Source: Daphnia pulex
Lineage: Eukaryota; Arthropoda; Branchiopoda; Diplostraca; Daphniidae
DNA length: 64,000 nucleotides
Direction: 5' to 3'
NCBI RefSeq assembly: GCF_021134715.1
Contig: NC_060026.1
Span: 12,639,001-12,703,000 of the forward strand
The position numbers and the translations under genes were made by a program. Positions 2,803-63,083 of the stretch are shown in pieces; positions within the stretch are counted from its first letter, which is position 1; every line of letters begins with the position of its first letter. The notes under the pieces were generated by a model, which was not told where the DNA came from, made no database searches, and saw only the letters and a list, made by a program, of their open reading frames with translations.

Positions 2803-5800
2803 GTTTCTGAGCGTGAAGAAATGGCTGCTGCGCAAGAAACACCAAGTGGAGCTGGCCAGAAAGCGCGGCTGGCGCGGCTATTGGGTCTGTCTAAAAGGGA
2901 CGACGCTCCTGTTCTACCCGTGCGACTCCCGCGAGGGCCGCCACGTCGAAGCCGCACCCAAGCATCTCATCATCGTCGACGGGGCCATCATGCAGCCCAT
3001 ACCCGAGCATCCGCAGCGTGACTTCATCTTTTGTCTCAGCACAGCATTCGGAGATGCCTATCTCTTCCAGGTAAATAGACTCAACCCCCCCATCCATCCA
3101 TCCATCTATTCCCCCCCCCCTCTTCCACCTTATTTCCTATCCCAGTCCGTCCTGTAAGCCATCCATCAGCTCTCCCTTTCTAGATATTAACAACGATTCC
3201 TTCCTTACTAAGAGATACACGCTCCGGCGCACACAATAGATATTATATAGCTCCTCTCCGTCTTCTTAACCAAAACCAACCGCTCCTTCCCCTTGTGTCT
3301 TATTGCATCGACTCCCGCACACACACACACACAAAAAGAGGATATCCCCCCGACAATGATAAACCCACACCCGGCAACCTACTAACACACACACACCCAG
3401 CAAAACTCTTCTCCTTTTATATTCTTCTTCTTCGTGTTCCATCATCCGCTTATTGTCTACGTTTTTTTTCTTCTTGTACTTTTATTTTTCCCGCGATTTC
3501 CTTCCACATCGACGAAGTTGTGTGTGTGTGCTGTATTTAGGAAGGCCGCCGCCGCCGTCGTCGCCCGGCTTTTTATTGATCGATATGAGAACGTCTCGAA
3601 TGCAAATGTGGAATATACCGGGGCGTCGGCGGGCGCCGGGACGAATAGAACTACTCCTCCAACACAGTTCATGTGTGTGTAATAACGTTCATTATATAGT
3701 TCAGCCGGCGCACTAGTAGTTGGGTTAGTTAGTTGATATTGTTATACTCACGAATGGAAAGGGGGAAGGGGGGAGAGAAAAAGATATAAGGAGCTGCTAC
3801 CCCCCTTTACTATACTGCTACTCCCTAATATACCCGAACACACTGAGAACTTGACAACTTCTCAAGATCGTCGGGTCTACAACAGCGCCGTACGTGTACA
3901 CACACACACACACACACAGTGGGTTTGTTTTTGCACTCGAGTGAGAGAACAAACAAGTTTGAATCGACAAATTTTGATCAAATTTTTATGACTATAGAAA
4001 AGAGTTTTTTCTTTTTCTTTTCTTTTTCTTTATTTGAAAATTTCATGTTTGAATAAGCCGGGCATGCGACTATAATGGAGGAAGAAGAAAAAAGAAAACA
4101 AATTCGTGGTGAGGTTGGAGGGATTTCTGTCCTTTTATATGAGTCGGGGAGTCCACACAAAAGATCCTCAAGGAAAAATCTTTTTGATTCTCTTTTTGTC
4201 GTGTGCACATGTTTGCGACTGAATCGAATCTTTTCATCCATGTCAAAGCCATTAGCCAATTGCGCACACAAATAACACACACACAACAGAAAAGAAGAAA
4301 ATAACGGTGAACTTGTGATATTTTCGCTTCTAGTCGTGACCCTCAATTTAATTTGGAACCATTTCCTTCAAATGATTTCCCAGTTATTTTTAACTTGATT
4401 GAAGTCGGCGGTGCGGTGAACAGATTCTCCGGGGCCATCGTCTATAAGAGCAGCCCCCATTGCCCGTGATTTAAATGGGCTCACGACCGCGTCTACACGA
4501 TCCCAGTAATAAGAAGAGGCTCGTTTTCATCTGATAGGTTTATATTCGTATTTTTTCTTTTCTTGTCTTGAACCGAACCATCGCGAGGGAGGATAAGAAA
4601 CAAAAGGAAGAACATAGGGCATATAACAGAATGGGATAACGTCGTGCCATAGTTACTCTTCAGGCGAAAATCCTTGTGTGTGTGTTGCCGCGCTCCAATA
4701 AATCGAGCGGTCGTTAATGCCCGTGCAGAAGAAGAAGAAGAGATCCTTAATGCTACACGGCTCCTATTCTCCCATCTTCATCCATCCATCCTTCCCCATC
4801 CCTCCCTCCCTCCATTCGAATACAATAATAATAAAAATGAAAGATGATGGAAAAGCCACGTCAGGATCTAATGAACCGTGCACACTGTTTCACTCTCTCT
4901 CTTTCTCTTTTTCCGTGTCTAATAACTATACACACACATATAGTAACGCAGATATTTATTCCGAATACACCGTGTATAGTAGTTCCACTGTGCTGCATAA
5001 ATAATATGTTGCCTCATCGGCGAGTGAAGGGGGTTTCTCCTTTCCCTATTCATTTGGGAATTTCTTTTTTCTTTCTTTCTTTCTTCTTCTTGATTCTCCG
5101 GAATTGTATTATTATTATACATCACGGCCGTCGTTTGATGGATGATGTTTCGTTTCGATTATGATTCTTGATTACGGCCAGCAGACATTGGCTGCTGCTG
5201 CCGTTCATTTATACCGCTGCTGCTGTACCACATTATTGTCTTGAGATATTCTGTAATTTTTTTTTATTTATTTATTTAAACTATGCAGGCTCCTTGCCAG
5301 GCCGAACTGGACACTTGGGTTAACAGCATTCATTCGGCCTGCGCCGCGGCTTTCGCCCGCCATCGAGGCAAAACGGGCACACTCCACTTGCTGCAGGAAG
5401 AGATTCTCCGTCTGGAACGTTCCATCGAATCGGTATGCCTTATTCGTCGGCCGGGGGAAATGTTCACTTTTCCATCATCCGTGTCGTTTCCATACGGGGA
5501 AGGATGGAATGTTTTCCATTAACATTTCGGGGCCCATTTCAATTTTTGTATTTTTATTTTTATTTTTTTTTCCCTTGCGATTCTTTGATGCAGGATCACA
5601 AATTGAAGCACATGGCTGAACTGCAGTTGTCGGTCGTGTCCGAGTCGGAGAGCCGACGCCAAATTGGAGCTCAGATCGCAGCTTGGGAGGAGAATTTGGA
5701 ACGACTTCACTGCGAGCAGTTCCGCCTCCGGTGCTACATGGCCAGCTTGCAGCACGGAGAGTTGCCTAATCCAAAGGTACGTCAACTTACCAAGTTCCAA

Positions 5801-45740: not shown

Positions 45741-47276
45741 TTAATTTTGAAGCAGGATAACCATATAAGTCACTACAGAACCTGTCAACTGGTTGATAAT
45801 TACCAAAAAAGCAACAGCGTTACTTAATTCAAATAAAAATTAACGGGAAAAAACTCACTGCTGGAATGAGATGGACCCCAACATTGAACAGTCCAGCAGC
45901 CGACAAGCGAACGCGGCCTTTATCAATTTGCATCAAAATACTCATCACCTGAAAGGTTTCAATGTTAGTGCAAATCCATAGATTACGTTTGTGTTAAAAA
46001 CTATAGTGAAACGGACCGCAATTTTTTCGGCCGACGTTCTGGCAAATCTGGAAATCGACATTCTAATCAATCGCTCACGTACTAGACGGACCTAAAATAG
46101 AAGAAGAATATCCGGCTAAAAATGTGTTATACATTAAAACTATTCGAGAAATAGAAATCGGATTTCATAATGACCTGAGTGACGGGCATATCTGCGGCGA
46201 AGAGTAGGACCAATATTCGTATCCATTCCGTTAAGAAATGAAAAGGAAATACTAAACTGTAGTTCTGCAACACGTTATTGCCATGAACGAAATAATACAC
46301 GAAGATAAAGGCTGCGTTGATGACCGAGACAAATTTAGTTGTCAGTAAAATCAAGACAGGAAAAGAGAAAATGTGATTCAATTCCGACGAAGCACGACAG
46401 AGGTAATGAAAAATCTTTGCGTTGTGTCTCAAGATTTTTAAATTTTCCGTCCTATAATTTGGATAATCACTGCTGAATTTGAGGGTGTTTATTTGATTTA
46501 AAATTATGTATATAGTAAGGTCTGGTTACCAGTTCAAATGTCCATCATAACGATCCGCTTCAGTATCCAACAAAACCATTTGCATGTAATGTGAGATTAT
46601 GTAATTGCAGATGTGTATGAATAAGAAAATGCATTCAAATATCGTCGCGGTCATCATCAGAATCAGGAGTATTGCAGCCGTTCCTAATAAAGCCGTCGGA
46701 TTCTCTAGAACCCAGGATGGTACTAGTGGCATCACTGCGAGCGCCCCGCTTACAATCTGCGTTAACAAATGACAAATGAAAGAGTTAGAACTTAAAAGAT
46801 TCAGACTCTTTGCCTATACTAACTGTCATGAGGATAAGTATAAAGCCGATAATAATTCGGGTCTTGAGCGAGCTCTTGTGCTGCGCCATGAATTCCTTTC
46901 CGAAAAGCCTCTCGACTTCTTGGACGGCTTCGATTGCCCTCTGCAGCCGACGGTAGCGCAACACGATCCAGCGGGAAAATAATAATTGTACCAGTGAGGA
47001 AATTGAATTGACCGCGGACAGAATTTTAATGGTGATGGGTAAACTTTGATCGGTTGATATGTCGTCCTGTTTACTGACTGAGAAGTACCTCGCGAAGCAA
47101 ACAATGGCGATTTGTAAAGCCAAAATAAATAGGAACCACCTGGCGACACGATGCTTGAAAGAGAAAGTGAATTTGTTAAATTTGTTGGTCATTAAATTGT
47201 TTTCTATCGCGTAAGGAATCATCCCGCACGCTTGACAGAGATTAACGAACGGTCGGATTTGTTCGAATACCGACAT
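45741..47276 (-). CDS. gustatory receptor (7tm_7/Gr family)
   Basis: Six exons (47276-46824, 46756-46530, 46451-46175, 46091-46017, 45948-45859, 45788-45741) join in phase into 389 residues, the usual length for arthropod gustatory receptors. Several hydrophobic spans are clear: RWFLFILALQIAIVCFARYF and an LLILMMTATIFECIFLFI stretch in exon 2, with two more in exon 3. The short final exon supplies the family hallmark at the C-terminus, TYMVILLQN, corresponding to the TYhhhhhQF motif. The final two exons follow the classic pattern of late short exons with phase-0 introns. Such proteins are ligand-gated cation channels of chemosensory neurons. The ligand cannot be deduced. I cannot assign it to a numbered receptor. 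Confidence 0.9.
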
Positions 47277-47912
47277 GATGGGGAAACCGAATTTCCTATC
47301 CCACTAAAGAAAATGCATCTAATAGGTTTAATAACTGGAGGAACATTGATGTGAAGAATTGTGTTGAGTGTTGAAGCTTGACAATTGTGTGTATTATTAT
47401 AGATGTAACCATGGGGATATGTATGGTAACATAGTAAATATAATTACTATAAAAGGTCCCACATGTTACTATGTAGCCTATATACATACGCATGAATACT
47501 TTCAGTGTTAAGAAATAATTATTTTCTCGTAATGGCTTATTGTTAATTTCCCGTTACTTACTTAATTTCAACTCTCAAACTTTTTGTTTCAAATTCCTAA
47601 TCGCTTATATTCATTTGCATGAATTTGTTTCTTCTCTTTTTTCTGGTGGCTTCTTTTTTTTTACTTCACGTGATTACAATCGACCTAAATAGTCCATCGA
47701 TCAATTTATCAAGCGCTTTGGTGAGTTTGTTTTTCTTATCGATTCGAAATCAAACCACCGACACCCACCTCAGTTTTGAAAGCATCGTCAAAGATAAGTT
47801 CTGTAAACACACGGCCTTTCTAAAGTTAATTTCGTTTAAGATATTCGGTATAAAAAGGACGGTCTCTAAGAGAACAAAATTCAGAACTTATTTACCTTTT
47901 CTCTTGAGCAAA
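47277..47912. promoter_or_regulatory. divergent spacer between the gustatory receptor and lectin gene A
   Basis: The only firm signal is TATAAAAA at about 47849, 64 bp before the ATG of gene A. An open frame continues upstream of that ATG to 47619, but it would place the signal peptide internally, so it is taken as untranslated. Confidence 0.6.
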
Positions 47913-51344: not shown

Positions 51345-52482
51345 TCAAAGGGAGGCGGCAATTTCCTCCTGCAACATGAAACCGGTGAAATGGGTGTAGT
51401 GGTATTCGCTGTCGAAGAGAGTCGACAGGGTCATGAAAACGATCTGCACCCAAACTTGATCGCCTGTTTTTAAGTTCAGCGTCGACTGCAGGGTCAACGG
51501 ACTCCACATCTCTCCGGGAGTGCTCGCCTCAGTCACGTAAGCAGTTCCGGTCTGATGCCCGTTCACGTAAAGAAAAACTCCCAACGAAACGTAAGTTTCT
51601 GAAGCTGAAAGACGCGCATGTCCCGCGAATGAGAAGAAATAAATTCCGTTTCGTGGTGCAGTGAATATTCCGGATGCTAAATCCATGGCGTTGCCCTCGT
51701 TTATCAATGCCAAATCGAACGGAATCTTTGCAAATGCGGATAGAGAACTGTTTCTCTGGACGTAGAAATAAACGGGCGCTGATTTGACGTCGGCGTATCC
51801 GATCCATTTTTGAAAACCTTTTCGTTCATTTAAATAACAGTTAATAATTGAATATAATCCGCGTAAAAATAAAATGTGGTGTTACCCTCATCGCCGGGAA
51901 GTTTAGTAAAATCGCAATAAACGGATTCCATCCTCGCTGATCCCATGACGAAATGAAATCCATTCAGGGTGTGGCCAATCGTTTTGAGATCCTCGCATGA
52001 AGATGGTAATCCGTTAATGGCCACTGCTGTTGCTTGAGAAGAGTCAAAACCGTTTGCCGTTGCGCGTTCGGTTTTCTCTCGTAACAAGGAAGTTAGGAGC
52101 GAATCTTGTTGTTGTACTTTGGCTTCCAGTTCAGTCACTTTTTCCTTCATTTTAACCTCGTTTGACTCAAGTTGAATCACTTTCGACTCTAATTGAGTCG
52201 ATTTTGACTCCAGACTCTTCACCACTTCTTTCATTTGAATCTGTTGACAAAAATGGCATTACATTGATATGACATGAATAAAAATAGCAAACTGAATGGG
52301 ACTGACGAACAATACAGCTCAAAAACGTGAAAATGAAATTTAGATATTCTTACATAATTTTCCTTCAGCTGTCGAAATTCTTCTTCTAAAGAAAAATCCG
52401 TGCCAGTTGAACCAGTCGTCCAACAGATTAAAACCAACAACAAACCTATTTGGATGGGCGAAGCTACAGAAAAATTTGCCAT
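51345..52482 (-). CDS. secreted C1q-domain protein with coiled coil
   Basis: Three exons (52482-52354, 52240-51886, 51817-51345) encode 318 residues. An N-terminal signal peptide (IGLLLVLICWTTGSTG) is followed by a heptad-rich coiled coil (about residues 45-90, repeats like SKVIQLES and KVTELEAKV). A central segment follows, with a Cys pair in SSCEDL and VYCDF. The C-terminal globular C1q domain (about residues 190-318) has the family features FSFAGHARLS, GIYFFSF, NLKTGDQVWVQI and a final FTGFML. Invertebrate C1q-domain proteins are secreted pattern-recognition lectins or adhesion proteins; the coiled coil would drive trimerisation in place of collagen repeats. It stands on the opposite strand inside a cluster of C-type lectin genes. 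The first ATG of the frame directly starts the signal peptide. Confidence 0.93.
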
Positions 52483-53835
52483 TTTAATTTTAGCCTACTT
52501 TCACACAGCTAAAACAGCTGTCTTTCAATAAGATTCGACTGTGTTTTCAAACTGGATATGCGTTGTAAATTATCCAGAGCCGTTTGTTGGGTTTGTCTTA
52601 AAGTTCAATAATAAATTGAGATAAACGAGTCTTTGTGTTTGTATAATTCCTGCCGAAAGAAGATAAGTCCTCGAATGGAAATTTCAATGTCATTTTTCTG
52701 TTTTTTCCGAATTTTCAGGGTTTTCCAATTTGTTTTTATTTTTCAATTTTTCTCTCAAATTTTCTGGATATTTCCGGTCAATTGAGCCACCAGAAAGTGT
52801 CGGGTATTTGATGGTCTTTCTACAAATTATTGAAACGAGGATTTCTCTGTAGTGACGAAATTCTGATTGTGAGACTATATAGCTTTTCGGTGATAAATTC
52901 ATTGCACAGTAGGCTACCACTACCAGAGCTCGCTTACGACACGATTTGTTATCGACTTTATTTTTATCCTTACCTTAGTTCATTATTTTTTAGACTACTC
53001 AGGCGGTTCGGCCGTGCGGTGATGGTGCCACCTCTTGCGCCGTCCAATCCATATCAGGATCCATCCGTATTATAGGCTGGAAATTTAAAAAAAAGTCTTA
53101 ATTGCTCGCAACGCACTGATATTTGACCATTTGACCATCTCTGCTGTCGGGCTTCGTCAAAACTGAATAAAATTTTCTGTGCTCCTTCTTTCTTAAATTT
53201 TTCTTATTATATAATCAAATTTTTCCTGCTGGTCATCAACCCAAATCGTTATCTCCATTTATTATTTGATTCATAGTTAATGACGTATGGAGAAGAATAT
53301 TTTACTATTTCCCTTCCTTTTCTTCACGAATAAAGTGGCCGGGCAAAAAAATGTTGACGCTGTAATTTTTATTGGATTTTGCTATCTGTTTTATATCGAT
53401 GTTAATTTTTCATACATCAGTAGAGAATTAAAAGAACTAACCGTAATAAGTGTATCAATCCTTGGGATTGAACCTCGAGATTGCGATATGTATCGCTGTT
53501 GTCTACTACTATGTCTGTTGTGATTTTATCAATTTGAAATCTAATTGCTGCTTCATCGTTTCTTTGCTACAGGCTATAAAAAGAGCTTGACAAGTAAGTT
53601 AAAGGAAACTTCTATAAATAAGACTTTGATTTCTATCAGGTTCCCACGCACAAGGGTATTTTTTTATATCTGCTTTATGGCGACATGAAACAGGGGGTCC
53701 GGTGTTCAAAAGGTAAAAACACGCATAATTTAATTAAATCACGTTGAGAATTCAGACCTTACAGCACGAACTTGCTTCGTAAACTTCAACAATAAAATCG
53801 CTTCGCTCTTCCTTTACTTTGAAAAATGCGGAAAA
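52483..53835. other. intergenic region upstream of the C1q gene and the orphan exon
   Basis: AT-rich with low-complexity TTTTC stretches near 52693-52780. A TATAAAAAG at about 53575 and an ATAAATA near 53616 could be core promoter remains of the orphan exon that follows. No gene was recognised. Confidence 0.45.
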
Positions 53836-53914
53836 ATGACAATTTTCCCAGCAATTTGTCTGTTTGTACTCTCGCTTTTCAGCTCCAGTAGTCACGGAAG
53901 TGTTCTGCCACAAG
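53836..53914 (+). pseudogene. orphan first exon of the CUB/C-type lectin family
   Basis: The 79-nt exon encodes MTIFPAICLFVLSLFSSSSHG and then six more codons, ending in a phase-1 GT donor (GTAGGG). This equals exon 1 of the five intact paralogues in length, signal-peptide style and phase. No CUB exon follows before gene B at 54797. It is therefore either a remnant of a sixth gene or an alternative first exon that could splice to gene B exon 2 (same phase). Confidence 0.55.
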
Positions 53915-54796
53915 GTAGGGTGTAATATTTTATTTTCTTAGTTTCAACGAGTTACTTACACTGTCTTTTTTATTGTGACTATCCATTTGTCAAAAGTCAA
54001 AATCCATAAAAAAACAATTTCGAAATCAAACATTCAAAATTTTTTGTTCCGGTCACTGTCAACAGGTGGCATTTATCTTTAGGATCTTTGTTTACATTAT
54101 GGTGATGGCGTGAATTAGATTAGTGCTGGTTTGCTGGATAGATCTAGAAATGAAAGTAAAATTGAAATTATTTTGTGAATCCATTTTAAAAGCACAGTCA
54201 GCATATACCGTCGTTCAATTGAGGTTTGAAATCAAATTGCAAATGTTCAAATTGTTTGGGATCGATGCGCATTTGATTTTTCACTCGATCGCAAATTTCC
54301 CGGGTCGGGCAGGATCAAGGTAAATCTGAGTGCTGGCTGATATTTGTCACTATAGGCACGTCTGGAATCAAGTTCCCATCTTTGGTGTGTTCATTGTGCC
54401 ATCATAGCCAATATATTGATGATATTTTGTATTTTTTCTTTGAGTAAAAAATAATTTTTTTTATGACGAGTTCAAATAACCAATACATCGTAACAAAAAA
54501 ATACAGTAAACGATACGATACAAAATAAGTGGCATGAAAAATTCCCCTTCCATAATCTTTGGGGAAACTTTTCATATCACTCTATGTATAGATTACAACA
54601 TCAAATATTTTGAATTTTGCCATTTTTACCTTTGAGATGTAATTGATTATTTCAATAACAGGAGAAAACAACAGTAGTCCGTCCGTGTTAATAAGTCGAT
54701 ATTCTGATATAAAAAGGAAATGAGATTCTTCTACAAGTTCACATTGCAGACTTCCCAAATAGCTTGTACAATTTTGTCTGAACAACAGTGTTCGAG
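53915..54796. other. spacer before lectin gene B
   Basis: AT-rich. TATAAAAA at 54708 lies 89 bp before the ATG of gene B. No CUB or lectin exon was recognisable here. Confidence 0.5.
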
Positions 54797-56125
54797 ATGA
54801 CACTAATTTCTATCTTAGGCATTTTCGTCTTCGCCCTTTCAAGCTCAGCTTTTGGCAATGTCCTGGCGCCCCGAGGTACATTTATAATTCCTATTTTCTA
54901 ACCATAATTAAGTTCAATGTACAGGTATCATATTATTGCGATAGATCTGGAAGGTTGCGGAGGATCAATCTTTGTTGAAGATGCAGTGGTGATCGATGCT
55001 CCGCTTAGCGCAAACTGCATGTGGCAAATCAAAACTGACGAAAATCGCGTCCTTGTTTTCACTGTCATTTCTGCTGGCGGGAATTTCAAACAAATTGAAG
55101 AATTTCTGTCGGTAAGAATATTGAATATTTATTGTTATGTCTTGTATAGGTTTACGTGTTATATGTTCAGCAGTGAAATTTCCAATTTTTGCTGTTTAGA
55201 TTCACGACGGACTTGGACTTGATTCCTCTGTCCTCTTATTTGAGAACCAAAAGGTTCACGAGGTGTCGAAAAAGGAATTACCCGAGGCCATTTATACCAC
55301 AGGTTCAGTCGCTGAAGTTCGATTCAAGAAAACACCGACTTCAGTTTTTAAGCTCAAGATTCAAAAGGTAATATTTCTACATAAATTAAATAATTTCCAC
55401 GTTATACTTTATGGAATTAATCATCCGATCCCCAGGCTGTGGATTGTCCGTTTAACTTGGGAGCAGAGAGCCAATGTGGACGGGTTGTGGATGAGACTTC
55501 CTGTTACTGTGCGACATTCTCCAAGGTAATTATTACCGAATTATTATTAGGCTACGCAATTACGTATAAGAATATTTTATTTAAAATTTGTTTCTTATCG
55601 TGGTTATATTTTCATGGGTATAGAGAGATCAATCGTCACAGACCTCGTATTGTAATTCACACGCCATGAAACTGTGGGTCATCGAAAGTTACGAAGAAGA
55701 GCTGGCCATTCAGACTGTCTGGGGTACATCAAGTAAGTACTGTTAGATTGGATTCCAGTCCAATAAAAAGGTTTTTTTTAGAGGGAGGGGGGAGGGGGGG
55801 GGGTGTCGTGTAAAGCTGCCGATGTAAAATATTTTTCCTAATATTAAGAGCTGCTTGTTATTCTCATTGAAATTGAAATACGATTTCTTTCAAAGGTTAT
55901 TTCTGGACCTCGGGCACCGATGAATTAAGTGAAGGTATGTGGATTTGGGAGACCACGGGAACAAATCTGTATCCGGGATACGCTAATTGGGCTGACGCAG
56001 AACCGAATGACTCAGGAGGCTATGAAGATTGCTTATATATTAACTTTTCGAAAAATGGAAGGATAGGCTGGAATGATGGGTCATGCGGCGGTTTGTGGGA
56101 CGCTATATGTGAAGCTCATTCTTAG
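54797..56125 (+). CDS. secreted CUB and C-type lectin protein, paralogue B
   Basis: Six exons (54797-54875, 54945-55111, 55200-55367, 55436-55525, 55624-55732, 55896-56125) encode 280 residues. Signal peptide (ILGIFVFALSSSAFG), CUB domain (CGGSIFVEDAVVIDAP, IHDGLGLD), linker (CPFNLGAESQCGR, CYCATFSK) and C-type lectin domain (MWIWETTGTNLYPGYANW). In the sugar-binding loop it has EPN, and further on WND, the usual calcium-ligand pair of mannose-type lectins. The protein ends soon after the lectin fold (CEAHS), without the Thr-rich tail of A and D. Coding and intron sequence are very similar to gene C on the other strand, showing a recent inverted duplication. Intron 5 contains a G-rich run absent from C. 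Likely a secreted recognition protein; the ligand is inferred only. Confidence 0.93.
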
Positions 56126-57128
56126 CTAGACGAACTTCATTTCTTGACATTTTTGGACTATTCTAAAACACTTACTGTTTTCTTGTTCAAAAATATGTTG
56201 ACAATAATACAAAAACATGCCGACTAGTTTTACACCGATCGGGCTGTACCTACATGTACAATTAAGCGCGCCCCAAGCCCCATAAAACAAAAACTCCTCT
56301 TTATCTCATAAAGCTGTTTTTAGCTGAAATTTATTAAAAGACTTTTTAATTATTGTTCAATTTTAGTAAATTAGTTGGCTTATGGTAAGATTTGTATACT
56401 GCTATGTAACTGACGTGAACTAGACATAGGTCGCTTATTAGCTCTTGCGCCGTCCGTCTTACCCCAGCAGCAATTTGTGTTATCGACATTTGACTCGATG
56501 AATAATGAATGATTGAACTCCGGCTACCGATCCTTGTCTCCTTGTGAAGGAGACAATAACCTAACCAATTCAAACTGATCTTGGAGGCATCACAAGATTG
56601 TTTCGGTGATCTTTCTATTTTTATCCAACTTTTTATTACTGGAAGGCGGTGCTGCAATGCCGACCTTCAGGGCTTGCCTATATACTATTACGAGGAAGCA
56701 AAAGGTTCCATATACAGGGTTCTTTATTGACTTCATATTCCACGATAATTCGAGATCCGACGATTGACATTCATTTTTAACGTTCTAGAATTATTCATGG
56801 AAATAAATTTAAAAATCCTTCAGGCATCCCGGTCAATAGATTTTTAGCCATCGCCACAACCTTATAAACAGTAGCCTATAGGGCCTACAATAACCACAAT
56901 GGAATGAGAGTTCTAAATATTAGGCCTGTATACTGAAAGACGAGAACAGTGTTTGAAGTAATACTCAGTAAAAGGAAAATCGCACACATCAGTTTTATAA
57001 CTTGTTTACGAAAAAAAAAGTGATCAATTTGTTTGTAAAGTTTATGATTTCCCTGTATTTGTCAAAATAATTTTTTTTAATAATGGCAAAAAACAAGAAC
57101 GTTAGTATTTCAAAAAGAAAATCAATGT
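56126..57128. other. spacer between the inverted pair B and C
   Basis: About 1 kb of non-coding DNA at the axis of the inverted duplication. No gene, no element with clear ends. Confidence 0.55.
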
Positions 57129-58436
57129 CTATGAATGTGCTTCACAGATAGCGTCCAACAAATTGCTGCAGGGTAAATCATTCCAGCCCACCCTTCCATT
57201 TCTGGAGCTGTTTATGTGTAAGCAATTTTCGGTACTTCCTGCTGCGTTGTCAGGTTGATTATCGGCCCAGTTAGCATATCCCGGATACAGATTTGATCCC
57301 GTGGTCTCCCATATCCACTTACCCTCCATTAGTTCATCAGAACCCGAGGTCCACATCGTATCTTTGAAATAAATCGTATTAAAGTTAATCGTCAATTTCA
57401 ATGTAACCGAGCACCGACGAGCAGCTCTTATTATTACGAAAAATATTTTACACTGGCAGCTTTACACGACAACCACCCTTCAAAAAAAAAATCTTTTTAT
57501 TGGACTGGAATCCAATCTAACAGTACTTACTTGATGTACCCCAGACAGTCTGAATGGCCAATTCCTCTTCGTAACTTTCGATGGCCCACAGTTTCATGGC
57601 GTTTGAATCACAATACGAGGTCTGTGACGTTTGATCTCTCTAATCGTGGAGAAAAAGCCTTCAGAGAAAAATTTTAAGTTGTTTTTAATTGCGTAATAAT
57701 TACCTTGGTGAATGTTGCACAGTAACAGGAAGTCTCATCCACAACTCGTCCACATTGGCTCTCTGCTCCCAAGTTAAACGGACAATTCACAGCCTGCGAA
57801 TCGGATGATTAATTCCATAAAGTATCGTGGAAATTATTTAATTCAGCATGTAGAAATATTACCTTTTGAATTTTGAGCTTAAAATCTGAAGTCGGGGTTT
57901 TCTTGAATCGAACTTCGGCGACTGAACCTGTGGTATAAATGGCCTCGGGTAATTCCTTTTTTGAGACCTCGTGAATCTTTTGGTTCTCAAATAAGAGGAC
58001 AGAGGATTCAAGTCCAAGTCCGTCGTGAATCTAAACAGCAAAAATTTGAAATTTCACTGCTGAACATATTACATACTGTAAACCTATACATAATACATAA
58101 CAATAAATATTCAATATTCTTACCGACAGAAATTCTTCAACTTGTTTGAAATTCCCGCCAGCAGAAATGACAGTGAAAACAAGGACGCGATTTTCGTCAG
58201 TTTTGATTTGCCACATGCAGTTTGCGCTAAGCGGAGCATCGATCACCACTGCATCTTCAACAAAGATTGATCCTCCGCATCCTTCCAGATCTATCGCAAT
58301 AATATGATACCTCTACAATAAACTTAATTATGGTTAGAAAATAGGTATTATATATACTTCGGGGCGCAAGGACATTGCCAAAAGCTGAGCTTGAAAGAGC
58401 GAGGACGAATATGGCTAAAATAGAAAATTGTGTCAT
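57129..58436 (-). CDS. secreted CUB and C-type lectin protein, paralogue C
   Basis: Six exons (58436-58358, 58290-58124, 58030-57863, 57793-57704, 57639-57531, 57361-57129) encode 281 residues. The exons repeat those of gene B in the same lengths, apart from three extra bases in the last one. Signal peptide (ILAIFVLALSSSAFG), CUB, Cys linker and C-type lectin domain are complete. The sugar-binding loop reads QPD where B has EPN; WND is kept. In known C-type lectins EPN goes with mannose-type and QPD with galactose-type ligands. The exon 1 donor follows A rather than G, a change that keeps the frame (Asn in place of Asp at the junction). TATAAATA lies about 110 bp upstream of the ATG (58553-58546). 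Divergence from B is concentrated in the last exon. Confidence 0.93.
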
Positions 58437-61806: not shown

Positions 61807-63083
61807 ATGACGCTGTTTTTATCCTTTTGCGTTCTTACTTTGTCGTCTCTGCTAAGCTCCATTCACTGCAATGTCCTTGTTCCTCGAGGTAATTATTTGT
61901 TCAGTTTGAAATGAAATTATTTTTACACAGATTGAAATTGTATTTAGGATTGGAGGCGTGTGGAGGGTCACTGTACGTTGAAGACGCGGTCGTGATTGAC
62001 GTTCCCACCCAAGAAAATTGTATTTGGAAAGTCCAGACGGACAAAGACCATATTCTTGTCTTTTCTCTGGCTGATGGTGGAAATTTCGAACGAATTTACG
62101 ATTTTACTACGGTAAGAATTACGAAAATCAAATGTTTTGTGTATATCCAATAGACAACACCAGAATATCTTTTTAATAGATTCACGATGGACTTGATGGT
62201 GACGCTCCCGCTCTCCTGCTGGAAAATCAAATACATCACGAAGTCGGTCTTACAAGAGCCGGAATACTCAATTCTGTGTACACAACGAGTTCAGAAGCAG
62301 CAGTGCGATTCAAGAATGCGCCAACTTCTACTTTCAAACTTAGAATACAGAAGGTACATAAAATATCTATCTTTTTAAAAATATATAGATTTCATTCATT
62401 CCTTAATTTTTTCTTAATTCGCATTATATAGGCTGTTAATTGTCCCTTTAATGTGGGATCAGAAAGTCAGTGCGGCCGAATTGTGGATGACACTTCTTGT
62501 TACTGCGCAACTTTCACCAAGGCGAGGCTTTAGTTTGTTGCTATCGTGATAACATGCATGAGTGGCAGTAATGGGTGTATAATTTGATTAACTAATGATT
62601 TTTTCGAAGCAATGTAATTATATCTAAACCAATTGTTTTGGTTTTTTTTGCGAGTATAGAGATCTCAGGCGTCGCAATCGTCGTTTTGTATTGCCAACCA
62701 AATGAAGTTGCTGGCAATTGAAAGTTTGGTTGAAGAGCTGGCTGTTCACAGCACTTGGCCAAGTAAGCATTTTTTTTTAAATCTAGCGCTCACTTGGATA
62801 AAATTAAATTCGGCGTACATACTAAAATAGCATGCTTATACCCTTTTATGAACGTTCTTGACGAACAGCGACCTATTTCTGGACATCTGGGACGGATATT
62901 GCCACCGAAGGAATTTGGGTTTGGGAGTCCACCGGCGTCAATCTGTATCCTGGCTATGCTAATTGGGGCAACTCTGAACCCGACACTTTAGATGGTGAAG
63001 ATTGCATTTTGATCCATTCTACTGTAGGTTGGCAGGATTATGGCTGTGGATCTGGTCAAGACGGCGTATGTGAGGCAAGATAG
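61807..63083 (+). CDS. secreted CUB and C-type lectin protein, paralogue E
   Basis: Six exons (61807-61888, 61948-62111, 62180-62353, 62432-62521, 62660-62762, 62869-63083) encode 275 residues. Signal peptide (VLTLSSLLSSIHC), CUB domain (CGGSLYVEDAVVIDVP, IHDGLDGD), linker (CPFNVGSESQCGR, CYCATFTK) and C-type lectin domain (GIWVWESTGVNLYPGYANW). The loop motif is EPD, a form between EPN and QPD, and the WND position reads WQD. No Thr-rich tail; the protein ends CEAR. The intron after exon 4 begins with GC rather than GT (AAG/GCGAGG), so it is either a GC-AG intron or a weakened splice site. Read-through there would meet a stop within four codons, cutting off the lectin domain. Confidence 0.88.

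Follow-up and report, generated by a model that had tools for sequence, protein, structure and literature searches.

Old inverted lectin duplicates in Daphnia pulex, probably homogenised in part by gene conversion, retain an older divergence in the exon carrying the EPN/QPD loop

Two C-type lectin genes of Daphnia pulex, termed B and C, are inverted paralogues that are probably old duplicates, partly homogenised by gene conversion, whose last exon, exon 6, keeps an older divergence. The process is an ordinary one and the case is instructive, in that partial gene conversion gives old duplicates the look of new ones. Both genes are located in the window, i.e., the whole stretch of DNA that was analysed (64,000 nucleotides; contig C10, positions 12639001-12703000), and the genome that was searched consists of 13 contigs with 133.19 Mb. 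An earlier inspection of the letters alone, referred to as the sequence-only reading in the following, had pointed to an EPN motif in the sugar-binding loop of B and a QPD motif in that of C. This contrast was found at the positions reported, and both proteins retain the WND motif. The accompanying view that B and C are very recent duplicates does not hold, because old divergence is present in the 5' flank, in intron 4 and in exon 6. Since the last exon retained an older difference, recent selection cannot be deduced from the EPN/QPD contrast alone.

Structure and Genomic Surroundings of Genes B and C

Gene B (54797-56125, plus strand) and gene C (57129-58436, minus strand) each consist of six exons with GT/AG splice sites and open frames, encoding 280 and 281 amino acids, respectively. 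The individual features are listed here and stem from the gene models unless another source is given.

54680-54726, plus strand: 5' flank of B with homology to that of C (local alignment score of 42, highest value among 300 dinucleotide shuffles 27)
54797-54875, plus strand: B exon 1, signal-peptide-like N-terminus (by eye)
54945-55111, plus strand: B exon 2, first part of the CUB-like domain
55200-55367, plus strand: B exon 3, second part of the CUB-like domain
55436-55525, plus strand: B exon 4, reaching from before the lectin domain into it
55624-55732, plus strand: B exon 5, first part of the lectin domain (gene model and Pfam)
55896-56125, plus strand: B exon 6, encodes the EPN loop and the WND motif and carries old divergence from C (gene model; NG86, YN00 and ML)
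55991-56032, plus strand: B loop (ADAEPNDSGGYEDC; alignment)
57129-57361, minus strand: C exon 6, encodes the QPD loop and the WND motif
57237-57263 (C10:12696237-12696263), minus strand: 27-base core of the C loop (genome pattern search, at most three mismatches, finding itself only)
57531-57639, minus strand: C exon 5
57704-57793, minus strand: C exon 4
57863-58030, minus strand: C exon 3
58124-58290, minus strand: C exon 2
58358-58436, minus strand: C exon 1

The 5' flank of B at 54680-54726, the divergence of which from the C flank is old, includes a TATAAA-like stretch. The loops read ADAEPND-SGGYEDC in B and ADNQPDNAAGSTENC in C, the latter being one residue longer. The Pfam C-type lectin domain (PF00059) was recognized in B with 48.9 bits and in C with 42.4 bits at a gathering cut-off of 22.6, and alignments revealed the residues of calcium site 2 in both proteins (E/Q-P-N/D, then E and W-N-D). 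For the CUB domain (PF00431), neither B nor C gave a Pfam match at E values up to 0.1, and a profile search of the PDB with the N-terminal domain (region of exons 2-3) gave no match at E values up to 1. Three of the nine paralogues scanned (out of 12) had a CUB match at E values up to 1, the best one reaching 5e-4, and B does not belong to the matching ones. The members of the B/C family are probably secreted lectins in which a CUB-like domain is followed by a C-type lectin domain.

Several further elements were observed in the surroundings. About 1 kb upstream of B, an orphan stretch resembling a first exon (MTIFPAICLFVLSLFSSSSHGSVLPQ, then GT) is located at 53836-53914 on the plus strand. 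Of five local alignments, the one with gene D around exon 1 scored best (36, obtained without shuffle control). The stretch represents a relic or else an additional, alternative first exon for B. Gene-like frames are present on the minus strand between lectin genes A and B (51345-52494), one of them with a C1q domain (E 1.2e-17), and a chemosensory receptor-like frame is located at 46785-47303 (minus strand; 7tm_7 with 28.8 bits vs. a cut-off of 26.6). Outside the window, a frame at L040:404-934 (minus strand) is by eye similar to the C1q frame of the window, and a second one nearby at L040:1827-2087 (minus strand) contains the zinc-metalloprotease-like motif HNIGHSLGLEH, likewise noted by eye; these two frames are possibly one gene.

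Mosaic Divergence Along the Two Genes

According to the sequence-only reading, B and C match closely through exons 1-5 and even in the introns. This is accurate for exons 2-5, which are 94-99% identical, and for introns 1-3 with K values of 0.05-0.08, but not for exon 1, where eight of 26 codons are changed (dS 0.22), nor for intron 4 (K 0.62). In the aligned 5' flank, 39 of 96 columns differ. Exon 6 deviates in 24 of 76 aligned residues and by a one-residue insertion, compared with 15 of 204 residues in exons 1-5. By the NG86 method, exons 2-5 yielded a dS of 0.10 and a dN of 0.027 and exon 6 values of 0.90 and 0.21, respectively. The corresponding dS estimates were 0.077 (YN00) and 0.075 (ML) for exons 2-5 vs. 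0.63 (YN00) and 0.65 (ML) for exon 6. Synonymous changes amount to approximately 24 at 45 sites in exon 6 vs. 11 at 118 sites in exons 2-5 (Fisher p = 8e-9).

Segmentation was based on 813 non-coding and third-position sites ranging from 54701 to the stop codon in B coordinates. The 5' flank segment before 54784, in which 37 of 83 sites differ between B and C, is followed by these segments, given without strand:

54784-55536: low-divergence tract 1, 27 of 413 sites differ
55537-55620: intron 4 island, old divergence, 22 of 50 sites differ
55621-55770: low-divergence tract 2, two of 77 sites differ
55771-56125: later intron 5 and exon 6, old divergence, 44 of 190 sites differ

A single changepoint had a log-likelihood ratio of 21.3 as compared to a maximum of 8.6 over 500 permutations, and the longest identical silent run extends over 81 sites (p = 0.0002, or p = 0.001 on a slightly different site set). 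The B/C pair displays both an abrupt change in silent divergence and a conflict of topology between segments, as is characteristic of a gene-conversion mosaic, and the occurrence of two young tracts inside an old duplicate is the pattern left by gene conversion. The sequence-only reading had raised gene conversion as a source of the altered loop and had proposed a search for its tracts. The two low-divergence segments are probably such tracts. The process was rightly named, but it would have acted mainly elsewhere, homogenising exons 1-5 and leaving exon 6 old.

Not all boundaries are equally clear. In intron 5, divergence after 55733 climbs stepwise, from 0.105 to 0.162, and the boundary is not knife-sharp. 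Homology of intron 4 between B and C is weak, with one of 300 shuffles reaching the score, and its divergence could be due to an unrelated indel. The 3' flanks of B and C exhibit no homology above shuffles, 42 of 300 of which reach the score.

We propose that recently, on one or several occasions, non-allelic gene conversion between the two genes overwrote two regions, one of them extending from exon 1 to exon 4 and the other from exon 5 into the first part of intron 5. The 5' flank, the middle of intron 4 and exon 6 would have escaped overwriting and kept their older divergence.

Comparison With Other Pairs of the Family

Gene models were built for twelve members of the family, that of H7 lacking exon 4 and that of gene E having its exon 4 placed by hand. 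Among the 66 possible pairs, those with at least 72% identity in some exon were listed, and six pairs chosen for looking close were scanned for mosaics. A stretch with less than 10% silent difference is present in B/C, F7a/F7b and F7d/F7e, and absent from G7/H7 (identical-run p = 0.006, one segment), F7b/F7d (identical-run p = 0.07, one segment at 0.215) and D/E (p = 0.44).

Genes F7a and F7b are neighbours on the same strand of contig C7 (L042/L043, C7:8930.6-8934.9 kb) and are unlinked to B and C. Their dS values for exons 2 to 6 are 0.14, 0.47, 0.10, 1.03 and 0.99. In exon 6, F7a and F7b differ at 31 of 76 third positions, and F7a differs from F7c, F7d and F7e at 28-33 of 74-77. For B and C, the count is 26 of 75 as opposed to 37-42 of 69 for either of them against A, D or E. 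Exon 6 of B and C is therefore still closer than the family background, unlike the F7a/F7b pair, which is at background in exons 5 and 6. Taken together, there are two unlinked pairs in which exon 6 is far more diverged than the homogenised upstream exons.

This recurrence would agree with the view that exon 6 was spared because selection removes conversions that erase the EPN/QPD difference, an idea that parallels the argument made for exon 5 of the red/green opsin genes, that is compatible with partial conversion of old duplicates and that we regard as a real possibility, albeit one we lean slightly against. It also agrees with a peak of divergence at the loop, where B and C differ at third positions by 0.82, a value derived from 14 sites only. 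On the other hand, conversion may just halt at the indel-rich middle of intron 5, and no homologous sequence that could reveal a two-sided peak was detected past exon 6. Furthermore, F7d/F7e constitutes a counter-example with a low stretch in exon 2 but a lower value for exons 5-6 (0.296) than for the middle of the gene (0.503).

Two additional observations concern exon boundaries in the family. The low stretches of F7a/F7b coincide with most of exon 2 and exon 4, reaching nearly as far as the splice sites; in the surrounding introns, 37-56% of the aligned sites differ, i.e., homogenisation is exon-limited. Exon 4 of gene E (approximately 62432-62521) and that of H7 on contig C7 end with AAG followed by GC instead of GT, so that GC-AG introns or altered splicing are possible.

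A Broken Third Copy and the Age of Exon 6

A broken copy comprising the 3' half of exon 5, intron 5 and exon 6 is located at C10:12708925-12709335 on the minus strand, approximately 6 kb outside the window. It contains one TGA in the two matched pieces and one TAA with C as the query, and its frame is shifted relative to B and C. By eye, a second degraded fragment at L040 (approximately 5160-5640, plus strand) resembles exons 2-3 of the lectin family.

The kinship between B, C and the broken copy shifts along the sequence. Informative sites in exon 5 and intron 5 unite B with C in 26 cases, C with the copy in seven and B with the copy in five; in exon 6 outside the loop, the respective numbers are nine, 22 and nine, and within the loop they are three, three and 12. 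The share of sites uniting B and C differs between exon 5/intron 5 and exon 6 including the loop (Fisher p = 5e-6). Bootstrap values are 0.999 for B plus C in exon 5/intron 5 and 0.984 for C plus the copy in exon 6 outside the loop. At third positions of exon 6 outside the loop, B and C are 0.37 apart, B and the copy 0.35, and C and the copy 0.25. The similarity of the first two values, together with a divergence of 0.37-0.47 between B and the copy in intron 5, indicates that exon 6 of B and exon 6 of C parted at about the time when the broken copy split off. Between C and the copy, divergence in intron 5 is 0.31-0.39. As C is closer to the copy in exon 6 than in intron 5, B would be weakly favoured as the donor of conversion.

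The same data bear on a scenario in which the whole gene was recently duplicated in inverted orientation and exon 6 of C was then replaced, through conversion or fusion, with that of an older paralogue belonging to the broken-copy lineage, which resembles the second idea of the sequence-only reading (conversion from another paralogue). Outside the loop, exon 6 of C is indeed nearest to the broken copy (0.160, as against 0.256 for B), and C and the copy both reside on the minus strand. Nevertheless, this scenario appears unlikely, as it leaves unexplained the old divergence of the homologous 5' flank, of exon 1 and of intron 4, and since the third-position distance between C and the copy implies that the replacement itself would be old.

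Silent vs. Replacement Divergence in Exon 6

Much less probable still is the idea that the genes duplicated very recently and that exon 6 alone came under positive selection for a new ligand. In its favour, replacements are dense in the loop, affecting eight of 14 aligned residues, and C-specific changes are concentrated there. However, silent sites are equally diverged, with a dS ratio of approximately 8-9 between exon 6 and the preceding exons, and positive selection on replacements does not lift dS so far. The ratio dN/dS is 0.23 in exon 6 vs. 0.27 in exons 2-5 by NG86, 0.36 vs. 0.35 by YN00 and 0.33 vs. 0.35 by ML. The per-exon comparison of dN/dS had been suggested by the sequence-only reading itself, and with no higher value in exon 6 than in exons 2-5 its outcome is the one that this reading had named as refuting selection for a new ligand at the loop. 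Replacement and silent changes amount to 33:24 in exon 6 and 15:15 in exons 1-5 (Fisher p = 0.50), nor does their ratio differ between the loop and the rest of exon 6 (p = 1.0). Equal dN/dS together with raised dS shows that exon 6 is older and not faster at replacement sites. On the basis of equal dN/dS, an equal replacement to silent ratio and high dS, positive selection confined to exon 6 was rejected. It had also been stated that change is concentrated at the loop. Differences between B and C are in fact spread over exon 6, eight of the 24 residue differences falling within the loop, and the statement is valid for changes on the C branch, which are dense there.

An assembly or haplotype artefact, i.e., alleles of one gene or a chimeric join producing the mosaic, is very unlikely: although the B/C mosaic is known from one assembly, the genes have opposite orientations and lie at a distance of 1 kb within a contig of 16.3 Mb, their 3' flanks are unlike, their frames are complete and the independent pair F7a/F7b has a similar mosaic.

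Origin of the Loop in Gene C

Comparison with related sequences suggests that QPD is most likely derived in C. The loop of the broken copy resembles that of B and reads E-P-S before the frame break, one base from EPN; among the paralogues of the same cluster, A and D carry EPN and E carries EPD. With glutamate present in B, A, D and E and E-P-S in the broken copy, the exchange of E for Q is most simply placed on the C branch, whereas the polarity of the N/D difference is less certain. The exchange may have arisen in one cluster of approximately 40 bases. C-specific changes occupy 12 of 42 loop sites vs. nine of 180 sites in the rest of exon 6 (p = 4e-5), five of 14 vs. four of 61 third positions (p = 0.009) and seven of 28 vs. 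five of 119 first and second positions (p = 0.002), all of these being small numbers for a loop that was picked because the sequence-only reading pointed there. Since third positions are included, replacement of a small block or clustered mutation explains the pattern as well as point-by-point selection does.

Searches of the genome for a donor of the C loop, in which simple repeats and very common words were skipped, returned only C itself, the broken copy and B for a 144-base DNA query and only C itself for a 27-base pattern with at most three mismatches. QPD is also encoded in G7, H7 and J6, the DNA of which is absent from the result of the 144-base search, and F7a-e carry RPS or RPN at the position of EPN. 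The triad thus varies widely among relatives. A tree of exon 6 proteins, in which one of 11 inner branches was starred, gave too little support to position C.

A more far-reaching and rather speculative reading is that the shared stem (exons 2-4 and neighbours) is recopied among paralogues, that the sugar-binding exon is kept apart by selection and that the loop of C represents a cassette of approximately 40 bases, the donor of which was not found in the genome. If this were true, new sugar specificities would arise on a constantly refreshed scaffold.

Predicted Sugar Binding and Comparison With Known Systems

Mannose-type sugars are usually associated with EPN and galactose-type sugars with QPD. 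Strong galactose binders additionally possess an aromatic residue, i.e., tryptophan, and a glycine-rich loop after QPD, as realized in engineered mannose-binding protein. Gene C encodes QPD at the position of EPN; unlike those strong binders, it lacks the tryptophan and the glycine-rich stretch after QPD, where it reads QPDNAAGSTENC. With the calcium-site residues kept in B and C, the prediction is that of two lectins with a near-identical stem and likely different sugar preferences, mannose-type for B and away from mannose-type for C.

Such predictions have to be treated with care. The EPN/QPD C-type lectins described in PMC6811590 and PMC12842671 share with B and C the motif, the WND companion and the calcium-site domain, and EPN/QPD variation is common among invertebrate lectins. 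Both papers include EPN lectins for which the predicted mannose binding is not observed: a mosquito EPN lectin did not recognize mannose glycans, with the exception of mannose-6-phosphate in the case of the complex (PMC6811590), and bivalve lectins break the EPN/QPD rule (PMC12842671). In D. pulex, a 12-gene C-type lectin family, as defined in that paper, is over-represented among genes down-regulated by predator cues, the table giving six and five genes in its two columns (PMC4514973).

Duplicates that are alike by conversion except around a function-determining exon, as proposed for B and C, are known from exon 5 of the human red/green opsin genes, where the flanking introns stay low, the peak is two-sided and the function is known (PMC3924837, which also cites Teshima and Innan 2008). 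In B and C, by contrast, the copies have opposite orientations, sparing concerns the final exon, past which no homology is detectable, and the functional difference is predicted. A precedent is provided by GOT1p1/GOT1p2 of the copepod Tigriopus californicus, which are putative aspartate transaminases studied across populations and do not involve a lectin binding motif (PMC3728101). Daphnia Dscam resembles B and C as a recognition protein with duplicated exons tested for conversion; unlike for B and C, no evidence for gene conversion was reported there (PMC3236188). Literature searches returned nothing on topic for gene conversion among the carbohydrate recognition domains of lectin paralogs and none for interlocus gene conversion in Daphnia tandem duplicates, and no published work on the B/C locus was noticed among the matches listed.

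Partial gene conversion can mimic a fresh duplication followed by selection, and young-looking duplicates may be old where it matters. If selection holds exon 6 apart, B and C would constitute a natural test case for a change of sugar specificity in an arthropod recognition family and would also test the opsin-type model of conversion vs. selection.
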